Shown here in pieces: positions 2 through 8,903 of a stretch of DNA of 27,611 nucleotides (positions are counted from its first letter, which is position 1; the number at the start of each line of letters is the position of its first letter). A program made the translations under genes and the position numbers. The stretch is taken from IMG/VR virus record IMGVR_UViG_3300037104_000354, positions 1 through 27,611 of that record; one strand, written 5' to 3'. The notes under the pieces are model-generated. The model had not been told where the DNA came from. It saw only the letters and a list, made by a program, of their open reading frames with translations, and searched no databases. Source of the DNA: a virus.

Positions 2-1213
2 TATGAAAATGCGAAGGGTGACATTAGACTTGTCCCAATGAAAGCGGATCACTCAACGATCTCAAACATGACCAGGGCAGTTGTGTCAGAAACTTTGATC
101 ACCGACAAGAATATGCCCTGCTGGATCAATGGTGCCGAGGGCAGACCTTATAGGGACCTGGTGGTTTTTTCAAATGGCATCCTGGATATCAGCCAGTACC
201 TCGCGGGATCAGAAGATGCCCTGCTTGATCTGACCCCGGACCTATTCACCACGGCTGCTCTACCTGTCTCGTATGATCCTACCGCCAAATGTCCTCAATG
301 GCAGGCCTTCCTGGAGTCCTCCCTCGGTGACGACCCTCAGAAGATTGCCTTGCTCCAAGAGTGGATGGGGTACTGCATCACGACAGACATGAGCATGCAG
401 AAGATGATGTTCCTTCGTGGTGTGAAACGATCTGGTAAAGGCACGATCATTCGTGCGATGATCTCGCTGATTGGTGATGGGCAAAGTGTGACCACGGACT
501 ATCTGGCCCTGACGGGTGCCCATGCGATGTACCCACTGATGGGTAAGCTGGGATGTTTTCTTCCTGATGCCGAGGCCCAGGGTACTAACATCCCCCACGG
601 CCTGGGTGTACTTCTGAAGATCACTGGTTGTGATGCCGTGCAAATCAATCAGAAGAATCGGGATCAGATTGCCAGCTATAAACTCATGTGCAGGATCACG
701 ATTGCCAGTAATGAGTTTCCCAACTTCCCGGATCACGCGGGTGCAATGGAAGCACGTTTAAACATCATAGACTTTCAGCGGTCCTTTGCCGGCAGAGAAG
801 ACTACCACCTGGATGACAAGCTGAAGTCTGAGTTGAGCGGTATCGCCGTCTGGGCCCTGGAAGGTTTGCGAAGGTTGCGAGCACAAGAACGATTCACTGT
901 TCCACCTTCTAGCGTCTCGGCCCTGGAAGCCTTCCGCCTGAACGCCAGCCCCACGGCATCCTTTGTCTATGAGTTGACTGATCCTACCCCAGGTGGTTGG
1001 GTCCTCAAGTCCGAGTTGGCAGATGTCTGGGAACAGTGGAGCCGTGGGATGGGCCTGAAGGATGTATCTCGTCAACGACTGATGGAACGAATTAGGATGA
1101 CGGCCCCGTATATCACGGAGGAAGTTGACGAAGCACGCGGCGTAGGATATAGTGTAGTGAAGGGCGTCACCTGGAAGCCCTGGGTTCATAAGAAATTTCT
1201 GGGTCGCCCATAG
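2..1213 (+). CDS. Primase-helicase of the P4/D5 type, C-terminal part (5' end outside window)
   Basis: This is the ATPase half of a phage/plasmid DNA primase-helicase, which would unwind or prime phage DNA for replication. The frame is open from base 2 with no stop, so the first ATG at 38 is probably internal and the gene begins upstream. Counting from that ATG, residues 44-51 (FSNGILDI) and 66-120 match the linker seen in D5/P4 helicases (TPDLFTTAALPVSYDP, then a WMGY helix). Residues 128-136, GVKRSGKGT, form the Walker A loop. KLGCFLPDAEA fits Walker B. ASNEFPNFPDHAGAMEAR is the sensor-like segment with the final Arg. The C-terminus (GWVLKSELADVWEQW) resembles a winged-helix tail. No primase catalytic domain is in the window; it may lie upstream. 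The helicase assignment is firm, the primase part is inferred from the family. The gene carries a GTTTAAAC site at 756. Confidence 0.87.
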   Translation, partial: YENAKGDIRLVPMKADHSTISNMTRAVVSETLITDKNMPCWINGAEGRPYRDLVVFSNGILDISQYLAGSEDALLDLTPDLFTTAALPVSYDPTAKCPQWQAFLESSLGDDPQKIALLQEWMGYCITTDMSMQKMMFLRGVKRSGKGTIIRAMISLIGDGQSVTTDYLALTGAHAMYPLMGKLGCFLPDAEAQGTNIPHGLGVLLKITGCDAVQINQKNRDQIASYKLMCRITIASNEFPNFPDHAGAMEARLNIIDFQRSFAGREDYHLDDKLKSELSGIAVWALEGLRRLRAQERFTVPPSSVSALEAFRLNASPTASFVYELTDPTPGGWVLKSELADVWEQWSRGMGLKDVSRQRLMERIRMTAPYITEEVDEARGVGYSVVKGVTWKPWVHKKFLGRP

Positions 1214-1251: not shown

Positions 1252-2283
1252 ATGAAGCACGGAAATAATAAAGAAACGTTTGCCACCGGGGCACAACGAG
1301 ATTCGCAGATTGATAAGCCCCTTCCGGGTTTGCTGTCACCTTTTGCCGCCGAGCGAAAGGCGATCATTATGGCAAAGGGTGCGGCTCACTACGGCCCCCG
1401 CAATTGGGAGAAGGGTATGAACTTCTCTCGCGTCCTCGAATCAGCCGAACGCCACATCATGGCGTTTAAACAGGGCAAGACGGACGAGGATCACCTGGGC
1501 CAGGCGGCGTGGAACCTGGATGCCCTTCTCCATTTTGACGAAGGTGTGAAGCGTGGGTTCTTGCCGGCAACGTTGAATGATATGCCGAAGTACGAACCTC
1601 AGCCAGTGGGTGAGACTGTCAAGCAGGAAGTCTGCACCCACGGCCCCAAGTACAAGGTGGAACGCCCTGAGTCGCCCTTGGACTCCGAGATTACCTTGGA
1701 GGAATTGGAATTGGCGATGGAATCGTTCGAGGCTATGAGGTTGACCACGGCAATCGAGGATCGTAAGGATCGACTCTTTCAGGTTCTCTTAGACCTGGGG
1801 GCCTCGGTCGAAGTTGCCTACCTGATCACCGAGGGCACCACTTTCCCCGCGAAGGAAGTTTGCAACAACGCATGCGTGTACATTGCAGGTCCCATGCGAG
1901 GGTACAAGGACTTCAACTTCCCGGCCTTTGATGCCGCCCGTGACACGTTCTTAAAGCTAGGATACGCGGTGATCTCGCCGGCCGACATTGATCGAGTGGA
2001 GAAGGCCGACGCCCCCAAGGCCACCGCCGAGGAAGTTTCAGATCAGGCACGCTACATCGAGCGTGACTCTATGGCCCTGCGGCTGCTATCGAAGCAGAAT
2101 TATTCGGGCAACAACGGTGTTGTCCTGCTGACTGGTTGGGAAAGCAGCAAGGGTGCGGCTGGAGAGTTCTTCACCGCACGCTGGCACGGGCTCAAGTTCT
2201 ATCATCACATGGGATCTGAGTCCTCGGCCGACAACTACCTGCACGACTTTGCCCTGCGGAATGTTCGTACTTCTACAAAGTAG
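1252..2283 (+). CDS. dATP/dGTP diphosphohydrolase-like (DUF5664) domain fused to DUF4406 domain
   Basis: This 343-residue protein has two parts. Residues 1-103 match the DUF5664 family (dATP/dGTP diphosphohydrolase N-terminal domain, MazG-like all-alpha): HYGPRNWEKG, then the helix RHIMAFKQGKTDEDH and AAWNLDALLHF, carrying the acidic and His residues expected to hold a metal. Residues 104-205 are an acidic helical linker. Residues 207-320 match DUF4406, related to nucleoside 2-deoxyribosyltransferases: YIAGPMRGYKDFNFPAF at 210-226 and GWESSKGAAGEFF at 295-307 with the likely nucleophile Glu305. Both parts point to handling of nucleotides, either clearing purine dNTPs or trimming bases. The exact substrate cannot be told from sequence. 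It lies between the helicase and a phosphoesterase in the rightward operon. Which activity survives in the fusion is unknown. Confidence 0.8.
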   Translation: MKHGNNKETFATGAQRDSQIDKPLPGLLSPFAAERKAIIMAKGAAHYGPRNWEKGMNFSRVLESAERHIMAFKQGKTDEDHLGQAAWNLDALLHFDEGVKRGFLPATLNDMPKYEPQPVGETVKQEVCTHGPKYKVERPESPLDSEITLEELELAMESFEAMRLTTAIEDRKDRLFQVLLDLGASVEVAYLITEGTTFPAKEVCNNACVYIAGPMRGYKDFNFPAFDAARDTFLKLGYAVISPADIDRVEKADAPKATAEEVSDQARYIERDSMALRLLSKQNYSGNNGVVLLTGWESSKGAAGEFFTARWHGLKFYHHMGSESSADNYLHDFALRNVRTSTK

Positions 2284-2289
2284 GTCCCC

Positions 2290-2982
2290 ATGAATGTGCT
2301 CGCTATAGGTGATACTCACTTCCCCGCCGTCCACCCAGGCTACCAGCGATTCTGCCAGGACCTGCGTGACCAGCATAAGTGCGACACGGTTGTTCATATC
2401 GGCGACGTGTGCGACGTGCATGCGATCAGCCAACATGAACGAAGCCCTGATGCCGAGGGGCCAGTGGATGAATACGAATCAGCCATGGCCTGCGTGAAGA
2501 AGTGGTACAAGGCCTTCCCCAACTTGAAGATTTGCGAAGGCAACCACGATGCCCGCGTGTCTCGTATGGCAGCGACGGTGAACATCCCGTCTCGCTTCCT
2601 GAAAGGATATAGTGAACTCTACGAAACCCCAGGATGGAAGTGGGCCCCGGACCACACCATCGACGAAGTATACTATACCCACGGAACTGGGTGCGGCGGA
2701 ACTTATCCCGCTTTCAACATCATGGCGAAGATGCTTCTCTCTGTCGTTAGTGGGCATGTGCATTCTGCGGCTGGAATTTGGTGGAGAGCGAACCCGCTAC
2801 GTCGTATCTTTGGAATGAACCTTGGCTGCGGCGTGGATGACAAGCACGTTGCGTTCCGGTACGGTGAGAACCTGAAGATCAGGTCAATCCTCTCGGCCGG
2901 CGTGGTTCTGGATGGTACGCCAATCCACATAGTCATGCCGTGTGGCCCTGGCGAGAAGTACCATCGTGCGAGGTTCAAGTGA
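2290..2982 (+). CDS. Calcineurin-like metallophosphoesterase
   Basis: A 230-residue protein with the full set of metallophosphoesterase motifs: GDTH at 7-10, GDVCD at 38-42, GNHD at 84-87, HG at 131-132 and GHVHS at 155-159. These place two metal ions, so the protein should hydrolyse a phosphomono- or diester. Phage members of this family have been proposed to act on nucleotides or nucleic acid ends; the substrate here is not visible. No signal peptide or membrane segment is seen, so it should be cytoplasmic. It starts 6 bases after the stop of the diphosphohydrolase gene, with AGTAGG as a weak ribosome site, and its stop overlaps the next gene. Its place after a nucleotide-metabolism gene fits a role in nucleotide turnover, but that is an inference. 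Confidence 0.88.
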   Translation: MNVLAIGDTHFPAVHPGYQRFCQDLRDQHKCDTVVHIGDVCDVHAISQHERSPDAEGPVDEYESAMACVKKWYKAFPNLKICEGNHDARVSRMAATVNIPSRFLKGYSELYETPGWKWAPDHTIDEVYYTHGTGCGGTYPAFNIMAKMLLSVVSGHVHSAAGIWWRANPLRRIFGMNLGCGVDDKHVAFRYGENLKIRSILSAGVVLDGTPIHIVMPCGPGEKYHRARFK

Positions 2983-4796: not shown

Positions 4797-7700
4797 CTAA
4801 TCCTTCATATCAGTGTTAATCTGATGGAAGAAGTTAATCCGATCTGCCGGCAGAAGTTTTTTCGCTGAACCAATCTTGTGCCTTACCGCTCCCTCGGTTT
4901 CCTTCTTCTCGTCCGGGGTCATTTTCTCCCAGACATCCATTATATCCTTGGGTCCCAGGTTGCGATCCAGGATCAGCCCTTCAAGACCGCCCGGCTTCTC
5001 GGCCCTCTTGGCGATAGACTGAACATCATCCTGGTCAATCGACCCCTTTTCTTCTGCCGCATGTATACTGTCCCAGGCATCCTCGTGCTTGTTGCGAAGA
5101 TCACCAACCAGTTTGGCCATCAGCCGGGAATGGTCAGCTTCGTCCGGGGTCCTACTGGTAGCTTTATCAGCCAGCTTGTCTTCAATTGCATTCTCGGCGT
5201 CGGACCTGATCTGTCGGGCCGGGGCCTTGTTGATACCTGCCGCACCCATCAATGATTTGAATGGCGTGTCGCCGCCTTCTCGCTGCTGGTTGTACTGCTG
5301 AACCGAGATAGGCTCGACCTGCTTGCCAACGTACTTGATGCGGTCCATCTGGCGTTTGAGCCATGGATCATCATCGCTGGCAATGTGGGTCCCTGTGAAG
5401 TCTTTGTTCGTCATCAGGTCCATCGTCGTGCCTACCAGGGGATGCAACTTGCTGGTGACCGTGGACAACGGAGAGTGGGCCGCACTGAACACGTCGTTCA
5501 TGTACGTAGGAAGTTCCACCCGTTCATCGTCACCCTGGGGATTCTTTGATCCCGTCTTTGGATAATACAGGTCCTTCAATTGAGAAGGTTTTTGTCCACT
5601 CATGGCGTAGTGCATCAGTCCACCCCAGAGCCCGGTAAGAATTGGGATGGTGGCGGCATAGGCCAGACGATGGGATATGTTTAAACCGCCCTTGTCGGAC
5701 TTACTCACGTCCTTGATGTCCTTCATTCCACCGAGGAGTTCATTCACTGTACCCTGGTTCCAACCGACTGAACGGAAGGACATGAGGGCCAGGTCTCGGG
5801 TGGTCTGGTGCCAGAAGAGATTGTCATGAACGATTTCGCCAAACCGATTGTCGATTGATTGCCAGGCCTTGCCCATCGCGTGGCTAAGTTGTTCTCCATC
5901 CATGCTGGGGTTTGACTCCAGGGCCAGCTTTGCCTGTTGCATGAAGGCACCCATCTTCAATCTGGGCACCATGTATTCCATGATGGGTTTGGCGACGGTA
6001 TCAAACGCTGCACCAGGAAGACGGAGAGCAGCACCTATGATGTTGCCACTGTGGAAGGCTTTCATCATCTTGTCAGTCATGCCACTGTGATAGAAGTCAT
6101 CCATCTTTGCCCGGCCACCCTGCTCTTTCATGGCGTCAACGATTACTTTGGTCTGGGCGTCTGTGGACCCAGGGTGCAACCATTCCTTTAGCATGCTGGT
6201 GCCGTTCCAGTAGTCTCGTGCGGCGGGGCCAATGGCGGTAGTGCCCAGGGCCATCTTCTGCATTCCTTTGATGGGCTCGCCCGCGATAGCTTGCTTCAAC
6301 CCTAGAGCAAATTCGCTAAGCCCCGAGTTGAGCGTGGAGGTCAGAGCGTGTCGGCCCGACAAGCCCAGGTTGACCTGGTTCATCAGGTTGCCAACTTGGA
6401 ACACACCGCGAATCGCAGGGCCAAAGTCCTTATGTCCACGAAGTCCTGTGGACAAAGCGTTGTTGAACACACTGGCCAGTCCCTCGGGGGCCATCTTGCC
6501 CCGGAACATGGGATCATTGATGATGGCCCATCCGTCTGGTGGTCGTTGATCTTTGGGCATTTGCTTCAGGTGTCCACGGGTTTCCATTTCCTCGCCGAGG
6601 TCATGAGCCGTAATCCACTTGTCCATTTGCAGGACCTTCAACTTCATCATAGTGACGGGGTTGTCAGTCACAGGCTCCAGGCCGGCCGCAATGGCGTCAC
6701 TCTGGAAAGTATAAGCACGACCCTTTGTAAAACTCTTATTGCCAGCCAGGGGCTTCTTGGCAGCAAACTGATCCAGGAACATCTTTGCTTTGTTCACATC
6801 CTTGAAAGCGTGGCCCATGTAATCCGATAGACCTTTAAATTCTGGGTCACGCTGTTGGATATCAGCCAGGCGACCATCGTAGATATCCCGGATATCATCA
6901 GCTAAAGATTGCAACTTTGGATCAGCCTGAAGGGCCCCTCGTTCGGCCAAGTCGGTGAAGGTACGCTGCTGATCCTGGGGCAGACGGTCCAGGGCGTTCT
7001 CAGCTTTGCCAAACTGATCGTGAATCTGGTCCATTCGTTGTGCGAGTTCTGCCCCGCGTTTGCGGAACATGCCCTTCCCTTCCTCGGCACCAGGTCCACC
7101 CTGAGCACCGAAGACGTTTTTCAGACCATGGGTAATCTTGGAGATTGCTTCTCCAGCATTTTGAATCGCGGGGATTACATCCTCGTGGATAAACTTCTTA
7201 TGAATGTCTGAACCGCCCTCTTCATTGGAAGCGAGTTCTTTGATCTTCGCGGCACCCTGTTCCTTGATCTTGTCGAAAAAGGACGGTTCCTTTGAAGGTT
7301 CATACGGCGGCTGTCCGTTTGCAATTCGCTCAGCTTGCAACCGTTTAAACTCTGGTGATTCTGGACGCCACAGCGAAATATCCTGGGCCTCCCGTTGTTG
7401 TCTTGCGTCACTCTCGGTTAACGCGGCATCCGTTACAGCCTTCGTGAAGGGCCGCTCGCTCATAGGTCCCGTTTCACTGCGAAGTCCGTTCTTGATGAAC
7501 TCCGTCTTTTGAGCGTTCGTAAGTCCTGGTTCGGTTGGGGCCAGATTCTGATCCCACTTCGCCAATTGTGTACCCGCGTTCTCAGCCTCGGCGGTGTTCC
7601 CGATTTCTGATTGTTTCCCTTTGGTGAACAACTCTTTTGGTGAAACAAACTCGGCCTGGTCCCCAGGTTCAAATCGATGTTCAGTTTGCACAGGTTCATT

Positions 7701-8903
7701 TGACACACGGCGTTCCACATTACGATCAGTGGAAGCGAGCCGGTCTCGCATATCCTTCAGCATACCCTGGGCCTCGGCCGGCACCGGAGTTTCTTTAGTA
7801 GCCTCAACAGGAGTTTGAAACTCCGCTTTGCTAAGGTCAGCAGCAGGAGCCTCGGCCTTTGCCGTGGGGTTCTCAGTGGCAAGCTGCTTCTGAGTCTCAG
7901 CCAGGCGTTCTTTCAAACTCTTAATGCGATCAGCAACTGGCTCCTCCGCAGGCGTAGGTGCAACCGGAGTTTCAGCCTGTGTGACTGGTTCCAGGTCCGC
8001 TGGAACTTGAGCGGCTGGCGTAGGTACACCGGGCGTTTCTGCGGAGGGGCCGGCTTGTCCTCTCATTCGTTGTAGCAGGTTGCCGGCAGCTTCATGTACC
8101 ACCGGGATACCCGCACCGATAAGAGTATTCATTCCCAGGCCCTGACCAATTTGGGTATCAGGCTGGGTAGTCTGTTGTGCAAGGGCCTGCTGTGCGAGCA
8201 TGGCACCATCATTGATCATGGCACCAACCGCAGCTTTGGCCCCGTACTTGGCAATGTATTGTGGTGTAACCTGGCTGATATACCCCGCCAGTTTCTTTTC
8301 GGCCACTCCCATCACAGAACCGCCACCAGGTTTGCCCTGGAAGATTTTACCCATGATGCCGTCAATCGCAGCTTGTCCGATGACGTGGGCAGCTTCAGCA
8401 CCTGTGCCGATCTGTGCTCCCTCTTCTTTCGCGTACTGATCTTCCGAATAGGCTTCATTGCCCCCGAGGCCCGCAGCAACTAGTGGGTTCGCATACTTAA
8501 CGGCACTACCAATCAGTTGTCCCGGTAGGCTGGAAACTCCACCGTTCCCCCGGGTCGTCTCCAATTGACGAGCACTAGTTTCCATATTCGCGGCCATGTT
8601 GGGAGAGAACTCACCAACGACGGGAGACAGAAGATGCTGTGCCCGGGCCATCAATTCCGCACCTGGGCGAAGCAATTCGATTGCGTTGCTGGCCAATGTT
8701 CCACGTTGAGCATTCTGAGACTCAATGGATGAAGGACCCATGGCCGTGGTTTGTAGACCCGCGTAATACTTCGCGGCCTGCTCGGGGTTAAGATGTTGGA
8801 CTCCGCTGGCTGACGGGATATCCGCCCCTTTCCCCTCGGCCATAGGTTGAAGGTCCTCGGGGATCGCTGATTCAACAGGTTGGAGATCAGTAGGAAAATC
8901 CAT
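4797..8903 (-). CDS. Large internal virion / DNA-ejection protein
   Basis: A 1368-residue protein in the place where podoviruses encode their largest ejection protein. Residues 1-280 hold Ala/Gly-rich segments that could insert in membranes (LIGSAVKYANPLVAAGLGGN). Residues about 280-460 are a low-complexity Pro/Ala/Glu/Thr linker. From about 570 to 720 comes a long helical region (KRGAELAQRMDQIHDQF, AFKDVNKAKMFLDQF). From about 720 to 870 the order SFTKGRAYTF, AAGLEPVTDNPVTM, then NQVNLGLSGRHALTST resembles a domain I know from very large phage internal and polyvalent proteins. A hydrophobic helix lies near 1078-1100 (AATIPILTGLWGGLMHYA), and the end is charged and helical. No lysozyme or transglycosylase motif was recognised. 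The expected role is ejection with the DNA to help it cross the host envelope. This is inferred from position, size and composition. Confidence 0.72.
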   Translation of the reverse strand: MDFPTDLQPVESAIPEDLQPMAEGKGADIPSASGVQHLNPEQAAKYYAGLQTTAMGPSSIESQNAQRGTLASNAIELLRPGAELMARAQHLLSPVVGEFSPNMAANMETSARQLETTRGNGGVSSLPGQLIGSAVKYANPLVAAGLGGNEAYSEDQYAKEEGAQIGTGAEAAHVIGQAAIDGIMGKIFQGKPGGGSVMGVAEKKLAGYISQVTPQYIAKYGAKAAVGAMINDGAMLAQQALAQQTTQPDTQIGQGLGMNTLIGAGIPVVHEAAGNLLQRMRGQAGPSAETPGVPTPAAQVPADLEPVTQAETPVAPTPAEEPVADRIKSLKERLAETQKQLATENPTAKAEAPAADLSKAEFQTPVEATKETPVPAEAQGMLKDMRDRLASTDRNVERRVSNEPVQTEHRFEPGDQAEFVSPKELFTKGKQSEIGNTAEAENAGTQLAKWDQNLAPTEPGLTNAQKTEFIKNGLRSETGPMSERPFTKAVTDAALTESDARQQREAQDISLWRPESPEFKRLQAERIANGQPPYEPSKEPSFFDKIKEQGAAKIKELASNEEGGSDIHKKFIHEDVIPAIQNAGEAISKITHGLKNVFGAQGGPGAEEGKGMFRKRGAELAQRMDQIHDQFGKAENALDRLPQDQQRTFTDLAERGALQADPKLQSLADDIRDIYDGRLADIQQRDPEFKGLSDYMGHAFKDVNKAKMFLDQFAAKKPLAGNKSFTKGRAYTFQSDAIAAGLEPVTDNPVTMMKLKVLQMDKWITAHDLGEEMETRGHLKQMPKDQRPPDGWAIINDPMFRGKMAPEGLASVFNNALSTGLRGHKDFGPAIRGVFQVGNLMNQVNLGLSGRHALTSTLNSGLSEFALGLKQAIAGEPIKGMQKMALGTTAIGPAARDYWNGTSMLKEWLHPGSTDAQTKVIVDAMKEQGGRAKMDDFYHSGMTDKMMKAFHSGNIIGAALRLPGAAFDTVAKPIMEYMVPRLKMGAFMQQAKLALESNPSMDGEQLSHAMGKAWQSIDNRFGEIVHDNLFWHQTTRDLALMSFRSVGWNQGTVNELLGGMKDIKDVSKSDKGGLNISHRLAYAATIPILTGLWGGLMHYAMSGQKPSQLKDLYYPKTGSKNPQGDDERVELPTYMNDVFSAAHSPLSTVTSKLHPLVGTTMDLMTNKDFTGTHIASDDDPWLKRQMDRIKYVGKQVEPISVQQYNQQREGGDTPFKSLMGAAGINKAPARQIRSDAENAIEDKLADKATSRTPDEADHSRLMAKLVGDLRNKHEDAWDSIHAAEEKGSIDQDDVQSIAKRAEKPGGLEGLILDRNLGPKDIMDVWEKMTPDEKKETEGAVRHKIGSAKKLLPADRINFFHQINTDMKD

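Follow-up and report, generated by a model that had tools for sequence, protein, structure and literature searches.

To our knowledge, a route from a deoxynucleoside triphosphate (dNTP) to the free nucleobase is known only from 2-aminoadenine phages. According to Poubanne and colleagues (2026, PMC12884076), Arthrobacter phage Wayne encodes a DUF5664 protein that acts as a diphosphohydrolase on dATP, dUTP and dGTP, and the kcat of the characterised DUF5664 protein is given as 0.22 per s for dUTP versus 0.48 for dATP. DmtZ belongs to the nucleoside deoxyribosyltransferase (NDT) superfamily, whose triad consists of Tyr, Asp or Asn, and Glu; it converts dAMP to adenine and passes the deoxyribose-5-phosphate to 2-aminoadenine, and in Wayne it is fused to the dUTPase-like DutZ, the fusion converting dATP to adenine (PMC12884076). 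The protein analysed in this study is comparable with DmtZ-DutZ, as described there, in that an NDT-superfamily domain and a dNTP diphosphohydrolase share one chain. It differs in its diphosphohydrolase, which is of the DUF5664 family rather than dUTPase-like, and in its NDT-type domain, at most a distant relative, which has Asp (D272) where the DmtZ triad has Asn. The genomic setting also differs: DmtZ-DutZ sits in Z-DNA phages with PurZ, whereas the PurZ family (PF00709) was found in none of 15 fusion records, which may be fragments, and in 14 of 14 control genomes. Wayne DUF5664-1 shares its family with our N-domain, but is a stand-alone protein with no NDT domain attached, a setting observed in BigMack (see below), where it adjoins PurZ-type and dUTPase-type genes.

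Acinetobacter phage SH-Ab 15497, a PurZ-type Z phage, likewise has a nucleotide enzyme of two domains, one of them DUF5664 (DUF5664-DUF550), but its second domain is a pyrophosphohydrolase (PF04447) and not an NDT domain. The DUF5664 protein of Arthrobacter phage BigMack is 29% identical to our N-domain in the alignment, and in this phage, which we take to be close to Wayne, PurA-like, DUF5664 and dUTPase-type genes lie in one run. Both domains occur in one chain of 373 aa in the 'purine trans deoxyribosylase' of Stenotrophomonas virus Jojan60 (ON045087), but in the reverse order, DUF4406 first. DNPH1/Rcl, MilB and the nucleoside 2-deoxyribosyltransferases are like our C-domain in fold and in their Tyr/Asp/Glu triad, but share only 10–18% identity with it in fold alignments, and we know of none with an attached diphosphohydrolase. 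The open-access literature searched yielded no description of a DUF5664-DUF4406 fusion and no characterised DUF4406 member; Pfam names DUF4406 a family of 'unknown function', and phage annotations call its members deoxyribosyltransferase, 'MazG-like', hydrolase or hypothetical.

The window, that is, the whole stretch of DNA that was analysed, is a 27,611-base IMG/VR virus record and probably a fragment. Portal- and terminase-like genes lie on its minus strand, and the features of the fusion locus are as follows.

2–1213, plus strand: upstream primase-helicase of the D5/P4 family, cut by the window edge
1252–2283, plus strand: fusion gene, PF18909 (DUF5664) N-domain, linker and DUF4406 (NDT-fold) C-domain, from the open reading frame, Pfam and recurrence
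1291–1539, plus strand: N-domain match to PF18909, dATP/dGTP diphosphohydrolase family, from Pfam, profile recurrence and structure model
1450–1455, plus strand: R67-H68 in the N-domain, invariant across all 34 DUF5664 domains of the alignment
1492–1494, plus strand: H81 of the N-domain, invariant in the same 34 of 34
1594–1869, plus strand: linker, residues 115–206, predicted disorder followed by predicted helices
1813–1842, plus strand: linker motif V188–T197, found in 9 of 17 same-order fusions
1876–2196, plus strand: C-domain match to PF14359 (DUF4406), nucleoside deoxyribosyltransferase/DNPH1/MilB fold, from Pfam, profile alignments and fold
1879–1881, plus strand: Y210, presumed triad tyrosine, in the motif YIAGPMRG, invariant in 36 of 36 and aligned with Tyr of the NDT 7m5h
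2065–2067, plus strand: D272, presumed to be the aspartate of the triad (DmtZ has Asn here), invariant in 36 of 36 and aligned with Asp of 7m5h
2164–2166, plus strand: E305, presumed catalytic nucleophile, invariant in 36 of 36 and aligned with Glu of 7m5h
2290–2982, plus strand: downstream calcineurin-like metallophosphoesterase (phrog_221), 230 aa

We observed a single open frame of 343 aa spanning 1252–2283, in which residues 14–96 matched PF18909 (dGTP_diPhyd_N, formerly DUF5664; E 1.7e-16, 60.4 bits against a cut-off of 27) and residues 209–315 matched PF14359 (E 1.6e-13, 51.3 bits against a cut-off of 22). Both matches are far above chance and exceed the curated Pfam cut-offs, which bears out the earlier note on this DNA, made from the letters alone, in its claim that a DUF5664-like and a DUF4406 domain are joined in one 343-residue chain. 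The single chain is not a sequencing or assembly accident, since the same-frame fusion recurs in other records on other contigs. The fusion protein had no match in NCBIfam, and a PDB sequence search with the full chain returned nothing. The AlphaFold2 model of the whole chain had a mean pLDDT of 77, and Foldseek with this chain gave a best E of only 0.094, a weak match, with lipases at ranks 2 and 3. On the minus strand, a 1368-aa protein (4797–8903) had no PHROG match at E 1e-5, and six others of the 10 minus-strand proteins scanned were also without a match.

The recurrence of the fusion was evaluated in several sets of records. Fifteen records with an observed or suspected one-frame fusion (the window, 13 scan loci and Jojan60) all exceeded the cut-off of the Pfam PF18909 model in the frame that also holds DUF4406, with the domains ordered as in the window in 10 and reversed in 5, Jojan60 among the latter. 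Two more reverse-order fusions were found in Cellulosimicrobium cellulans and Pseudarthrobacter sequences. The scan loci came from a DUF4406 profile scan of IMG/VR, taken as the best 80 of 559 relatives, of which L085 was left out as lying on the same contig as L003. In these 79 loci, the DUF5664 profile gave 33 matching stretches, spread over 31 loci. Every one fell in the 252,672 bases that lie no more than 1.5 kb from DUF4406, and the remaining 746,211 bases (75% of the DNA) had no match; the loci comprised 9 same-order fusions, 4 reverse-order fusions, 18 neighbouring pairs (9 per order) and 48 without DUF5664. A further set of DUF4406 records (50 of 67 loci listed, leaving out L081–L097) had Pfam PF18909 matches in 13 of the 50, 12 of them over the cut-off, each of the 13 lying no more than 780 bases from DUF4406, on contigs 8.7–66 kb long; these 13 are not independent, as the C-domains are identical within each of the pairs G069/G070 (L073/L074) and G061/G064 (L064/L067). 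In the reciprocal direction, a scan with the DUF5664 subtype of the window (best 80 of 418, with 5 of the 80 on contigs already covered) found DUF4406 in 11 of 80 loci, 9 fused in the window order and 2 adjacent, while no DUF4406 hit lay farther off and 69 loci had none. Within the stretches covered, DUF5664 often stands alone, and where both domains were found, they lie side by side or fused.

Separate DUF5664 and DUF4406 genes, overlapping or adjacent, also occur, and the two are neighbouring genes in the cultured Mycobacterium phages Aminay (gp56/gp57) and Boilgate (gp50/gp51). The survey proposed in the earlier note found the fusion in other phages, in both orders, together with adjacent gene pairs. 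Among 19 records related to the window phage, the fusion or part of it was matched in 14, and no match was found in G014, G022, G023, G025 and G026. MiaZeal (L188:1480–2721) carries DUF4406 (gp166), a protein annotated as MazG-like (gp168) and DUF5664 (gp169) in one run, with two genes between gp166 and gp169, and LittleE is similar. MazG was rejected as a frequent DUF4406 partner, as PF03819 gave a single weak match and passed its cut-off in 0 of 50 records; genes annotated as MazG-like nonetheless adjoin DUF4406 in MiaZeal and MrWormie. When the same-strand neighbours of DUF5664 were grouped by single-linkage clustering (L197–L276), the most frequent group was present at 30 of 80 loci, the best 80 of 418, and its example protein is an RNase_T-type exonuclease.

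Concerning the N-domain, R67, H68, G75 and H81 were invariant in all 34 aligned rows, the window row included. The N-domain alone (residues 1–117) was modelled at a mean pLDDT of 92.6, and its best fold match was 2p06 (AF_0060), with Z 7.6 over 77 of 84 residues, a value below the level that the fold tool calls safe for helical proteins, the next row being at 4.8. AF0060 is presumably filed in SCOP with the all-alpha NTP pyrophosphatases (MazG/HisE/dimeric dUTPase). The Z-scores were only 3.7 against MazZ (7ody) and 3.5 against mouse dCTPase (6sqw); Foldseek with the N-domain gave no match at E <= 0.001, and a PDB search with the DUF5664 profile gave one chance-level hit (E 1.2). By eye, two PF18909 subtypes could be distinguished, one with a 'GAxxYGxxNWEKG'-like core and the other with 'GNxQHNPGE', and the same C-domain type follows both, as would be expected if the function of the first step is what is kept. 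At locus L164, the phosphoesterase is 82% identical to that of the window, and the N-domain is of the other subtype. L018 and L173, which have unlike N-subtypes, are sisters in the C-domain tree, and a swap of the N-domain subtype is likely but not proven, because the support for this sisterhood (SH-aLRT 92) falls below the starred level.

In the C-domain, Y210, D272 and E305 were kept in 36 of 36 domains, fused and unfused alike. The profile match to the NDT 7m5h (E 0.001 and 0.0055) aligned the Tyr, Asp and Glu of the triad, and the predicted model (residues 204–336) matched 1t1j at Z 10.5 (108 aligned, 2.6 Å), the 2-deoxyribosyltransferases 6evs and 7o62 at Z 8.4 and 8.1, MilB (4jem) at 8.0 and DNPH1 (8qhr) at 7.9; the TIR domains of SPARTA and AbTir were also in this fold list, at Z 6.1 to 6.8. 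A loss of nucleophile or core residues, which the earlier note had named as the point to look for, was not seen, the C-domain triad being conserved in 36 of 36 and the N-domain core in 34 of 34. By hhalign, the DUF4406 profile aligned with the dUTPase-type protein of BigMack, in its N-terminal part, over 43 columns around the Glu (probability 3.7%, E 0.011), and DmtZ would be at most a distant superfamily relative of DUF4406. The C-domain tree was poorly resolved, with 13 of 90 inner branches starred. Parsimony on this tree gave 3 changes for the same-order fusion and 6 for the reverse-order fusion, whereas only 1 and 2 changes, respectively, are required by the well-supported branches. A Phycisphaerales assembly (L193:6001–6360) carries a stand-alone DUF4406 frame, open through the triad region, with 44% identity to the C-domain of the window.

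The region joining the two domains had been described as a long acidic linker. The acidic excess held, with 20 D+E versus 11 K+R from residue 100 to the Y210 motif, but it is only part of the picture, as helices are also predicted: in the AlphaFold2 model, residues 115–146 are predicted to be disordered and residues 149–181 and 186–195 to be helical, the model confidence being low as far as residue 170 or so (block means 50–61) and high beyond. The motif V[ASIT]xx[IVL]xxG[TM][TS], located in the predicted helical part, was found in 9 of 17 aligned same-order fusions, and the linker length varies between fusions.

From the observed domains, residues, pairing and linkage, we infer both activities, the substrate, the order of the steps and the purpose of the fusion. 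The protein carries the other diphosphohydrolase family of the 2-aminoadenine phages together with a different NDT-superfamily domain, so that the simplest reading, by analogy, would be the same two-step chemistry, and we consider it rather probable that the fusion protein is a bifunctional enzyme dismantling a dNTP in two successive steps. The N-domain would take pyrophosphate off a dNTP, most likely dATP, dUTP or dGTP, giving dNMP and PPi. E305 of the C-domain, with its NDT fold and Tyr/Asp/Glu triad, would then attack the sugar of the dNMP and free the base, and the deoxyribose-5-phosphate left behind would be taken by water or handed to another base. Base removal would make the loss irreversible, because dNMP alone could be rephosphorylated, and the likely role would be to reshape or clean the dNTP pool in phage replication. 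The two-step idea of the earlier note thus gains backing from analogy with the enzymes described in PMC12884076 and from strong gene linkage, and the fusion, which recurs and is real, would follow the two-step logic of DmtZ-DutZ with a different first module. Its proposed restriction to purine nucleotides is unsupported, the characterised DUF5664 protein taking dUTP too according to the same source. Points against the two-step reading include the weak Foldseek values and the at most distant kinship of DmtZ given above. Each domain can also occur without the other, since within the stretches covered a partner was missing at 69 of 80 loci of the window-type DUF5664 and at 48 of 79 loci of DUF4406. 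Additionally, draining dATP would hurt an ordinary-DNA phage itself, and the enzyme may therefore act on a less common nucleotide.

In a house-cleaning role, the target would be dUTP or a damaged or unwanted dNTP instead of dATP or dGTP, a narrower form of the two-step reading that we hold to be rather unlikely. Base removal would then block recycling, as it does when DNPH1 acts on hydroxymethyl-dUMP. The C-domain fold resembles that of DNPH1, but DNPH1 is one among several tied fold matches. In three phage records, DUF5664 lies near genes for dCMP deaminase, thymidylate synthase or dCTP deaminase/dUTPase, and the dUTP turnover quoted above (0.22 versus 0.48 per s for dATP; PMC12884076) points the same way. 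A second, overlapping set of 15 records, made up of the window plus 14 others from its group, was searched for the dUTPase family (PF00692), which was found in 0 of 15 records and is in line with this substrate; the fusion protein itself gave no PF00692 match at E 0.1. The thymidylate-synthase family was also found in 0 of 15, however, so that no dUMP-using gene was seen in the group, and the records of this set may be fragments. Both absences, of PurZ and of thymidylate synthase (0 of 15 each), also argue against the C-domain being mainly a transferase that would join a non-canonical base to deoxyribose-5-phosphate, so that a modified dNMP is formed for use in the phage genome and the donor dNMP comes from the N-domain. 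We regard this exchange as unlikely, although DmtZ carries it out with 2-aminoadenine and in Wayne is fused to a dNTP diphosphohydrolase (PMC12884076). In the upstream regions of two relatives, 10 of 22 listed ORFs were scanned by Pfam and 10 of 19 by PHROGs; the matches included DNA pol A, a resolvase, nucleases and one N6/N4 DNA methylase, among others, with 8 of the 20 giving no match, and no base-synthesis gene was among them, an absence that weighs little as the records may be fragments. The modified-base route raised in the earlier note found no support in these searches. Amidoligase-like genes lie upstream in two relatives of the window phage (L191:7706–9130 and L192:1781–2992), and L191:18594–18998 is Cpn10-like.

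The same fold list that holds the deoxyribosyltransferases contains the TIR domains mentioned above, and the DrHyd domains of conflict systems use NAD-type substrates (PMC9503650). A C-domain of the TIR/DrHyd class could accordingly destroy an NAD- or nucleotide-derived immune signal of the host, but this seems very improbable to us: deoxyribosyltransferases and dNMP hydrolases are the better fold matches, the partner domain comes from a dNTP enzyme family, the gene adjoins a primase, and PADLOC, which covers known defence proteins and is not built for anti-defence genes, gave no match for the fusion at E 0.1. No evidence was found for the destruction of a host nucleotide signal suggested in the earlier note. 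It also appears quite unlikely that the fusion merely unites two independent nucleotide enzymes for co-expression, with no shared pathway. The many loci in which a partner is absent (69 of 80 and 48 of 79), the varying linker lengths and the partly disordered linker would fit such an arrangement, but the domains are fused as well as adjacent in either order, and two N-subtypes occur on one architecture, all of which points to a shared function.

Returning to the two-step dismantling of a dNTP, the both-order fusion and the gene order tie DUF4406 to DUF5664 and provide a function prediction for DUF4406, and the pair is present in phage records that yielded no PurZ. The recurrence of the pair in other phages makes a phage nucleotide-dismantling route testable. 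Should the chemistry prove right, the dismantling or rebuilding of specific deoxynucleotides would extend to phages outside the Z-DNA group; which nucleotide and why could be answered with one purified protein. A wider proposal, possible but doubtful, is that a general module leading from dNTP to nucleobase exists in phages whose genomes are ordinary, composed of a swappable diphosphohydrolase and a DUF4406 N-glycosidase, repeatedly assembled and often accompanied by the phosphoesterase, which would either deliberately drain one nucleotide or exchange its base, giving an unrecognised modified nucleotide. If true, the route of the 2-aminoadenine phages would be a single instance of a pathway far more widespread among phages.

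The phosphoesterase gene of the window starts 6 bases past the stop of the fusion gene, and the block of primase, fusion and phosphoesterase recurs in the phage group of the window. The earlier note had linked the fusion to this neighbour, and the link recurs, since the profile detected a same-strand phosphoesterase close to 13 of 17 same-order fusions; in addition, L169 has one according to PHROGs, and none was seen in the stretches covered at L020, L025 and L179. Outside the group of the window (L018–L026), the phosphoesterase profile matched seven other scan loci among the best 80 of 559, lying within 550 bases of DUF4406 in five, and 2.8 kb away on the opposite strand and 4.9 kb away in the other two. 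The PHROG phosphoesterase model matched 8 of 50 DUF4406 records, and in 5 of these 8 the gene lies no farther than 550 bases from DUF4406. Among the DUF5664 loci (best 80 of 418), 11 of 12 phosphoesterase hits lay within 1.5 kb, 5 of the 12 loci being without DUF4406.

The phosphoesterase-like neighbours of L169, L180 and L195 found no confirmation in Pfam at E 0.01, whereas PHROGs placed those of L169 and L180 in phrog_221 and that of L195 in phrog_284, named exonuclease; the neighbour of L005, judged a phosphoesterase by eye, had no PHROG match. With the phosphoesterase of the window, a PDB sequence search gave two hits of no use (best E 0.049), and PADLOC gave one weak match (E 0.00063). 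At G019, one of the 14 related records with a match to the fusion or part of it, DUF5664 alone stands directly before a phrog_221 phosphoesterase. In a different phage (L166), DUF5664, an NDT/DUF4406-like protein and a phosphoesterase are three separate adjacent genes, the phosphoesterase being 52% identical to that of the window and the NDT/DUF4406-like protein scoring below both Pfam cut-offs. The phrog_221 phosphoesterase recurs beside these domains whether they are fused, unfused or represented by DUF5664 alone.
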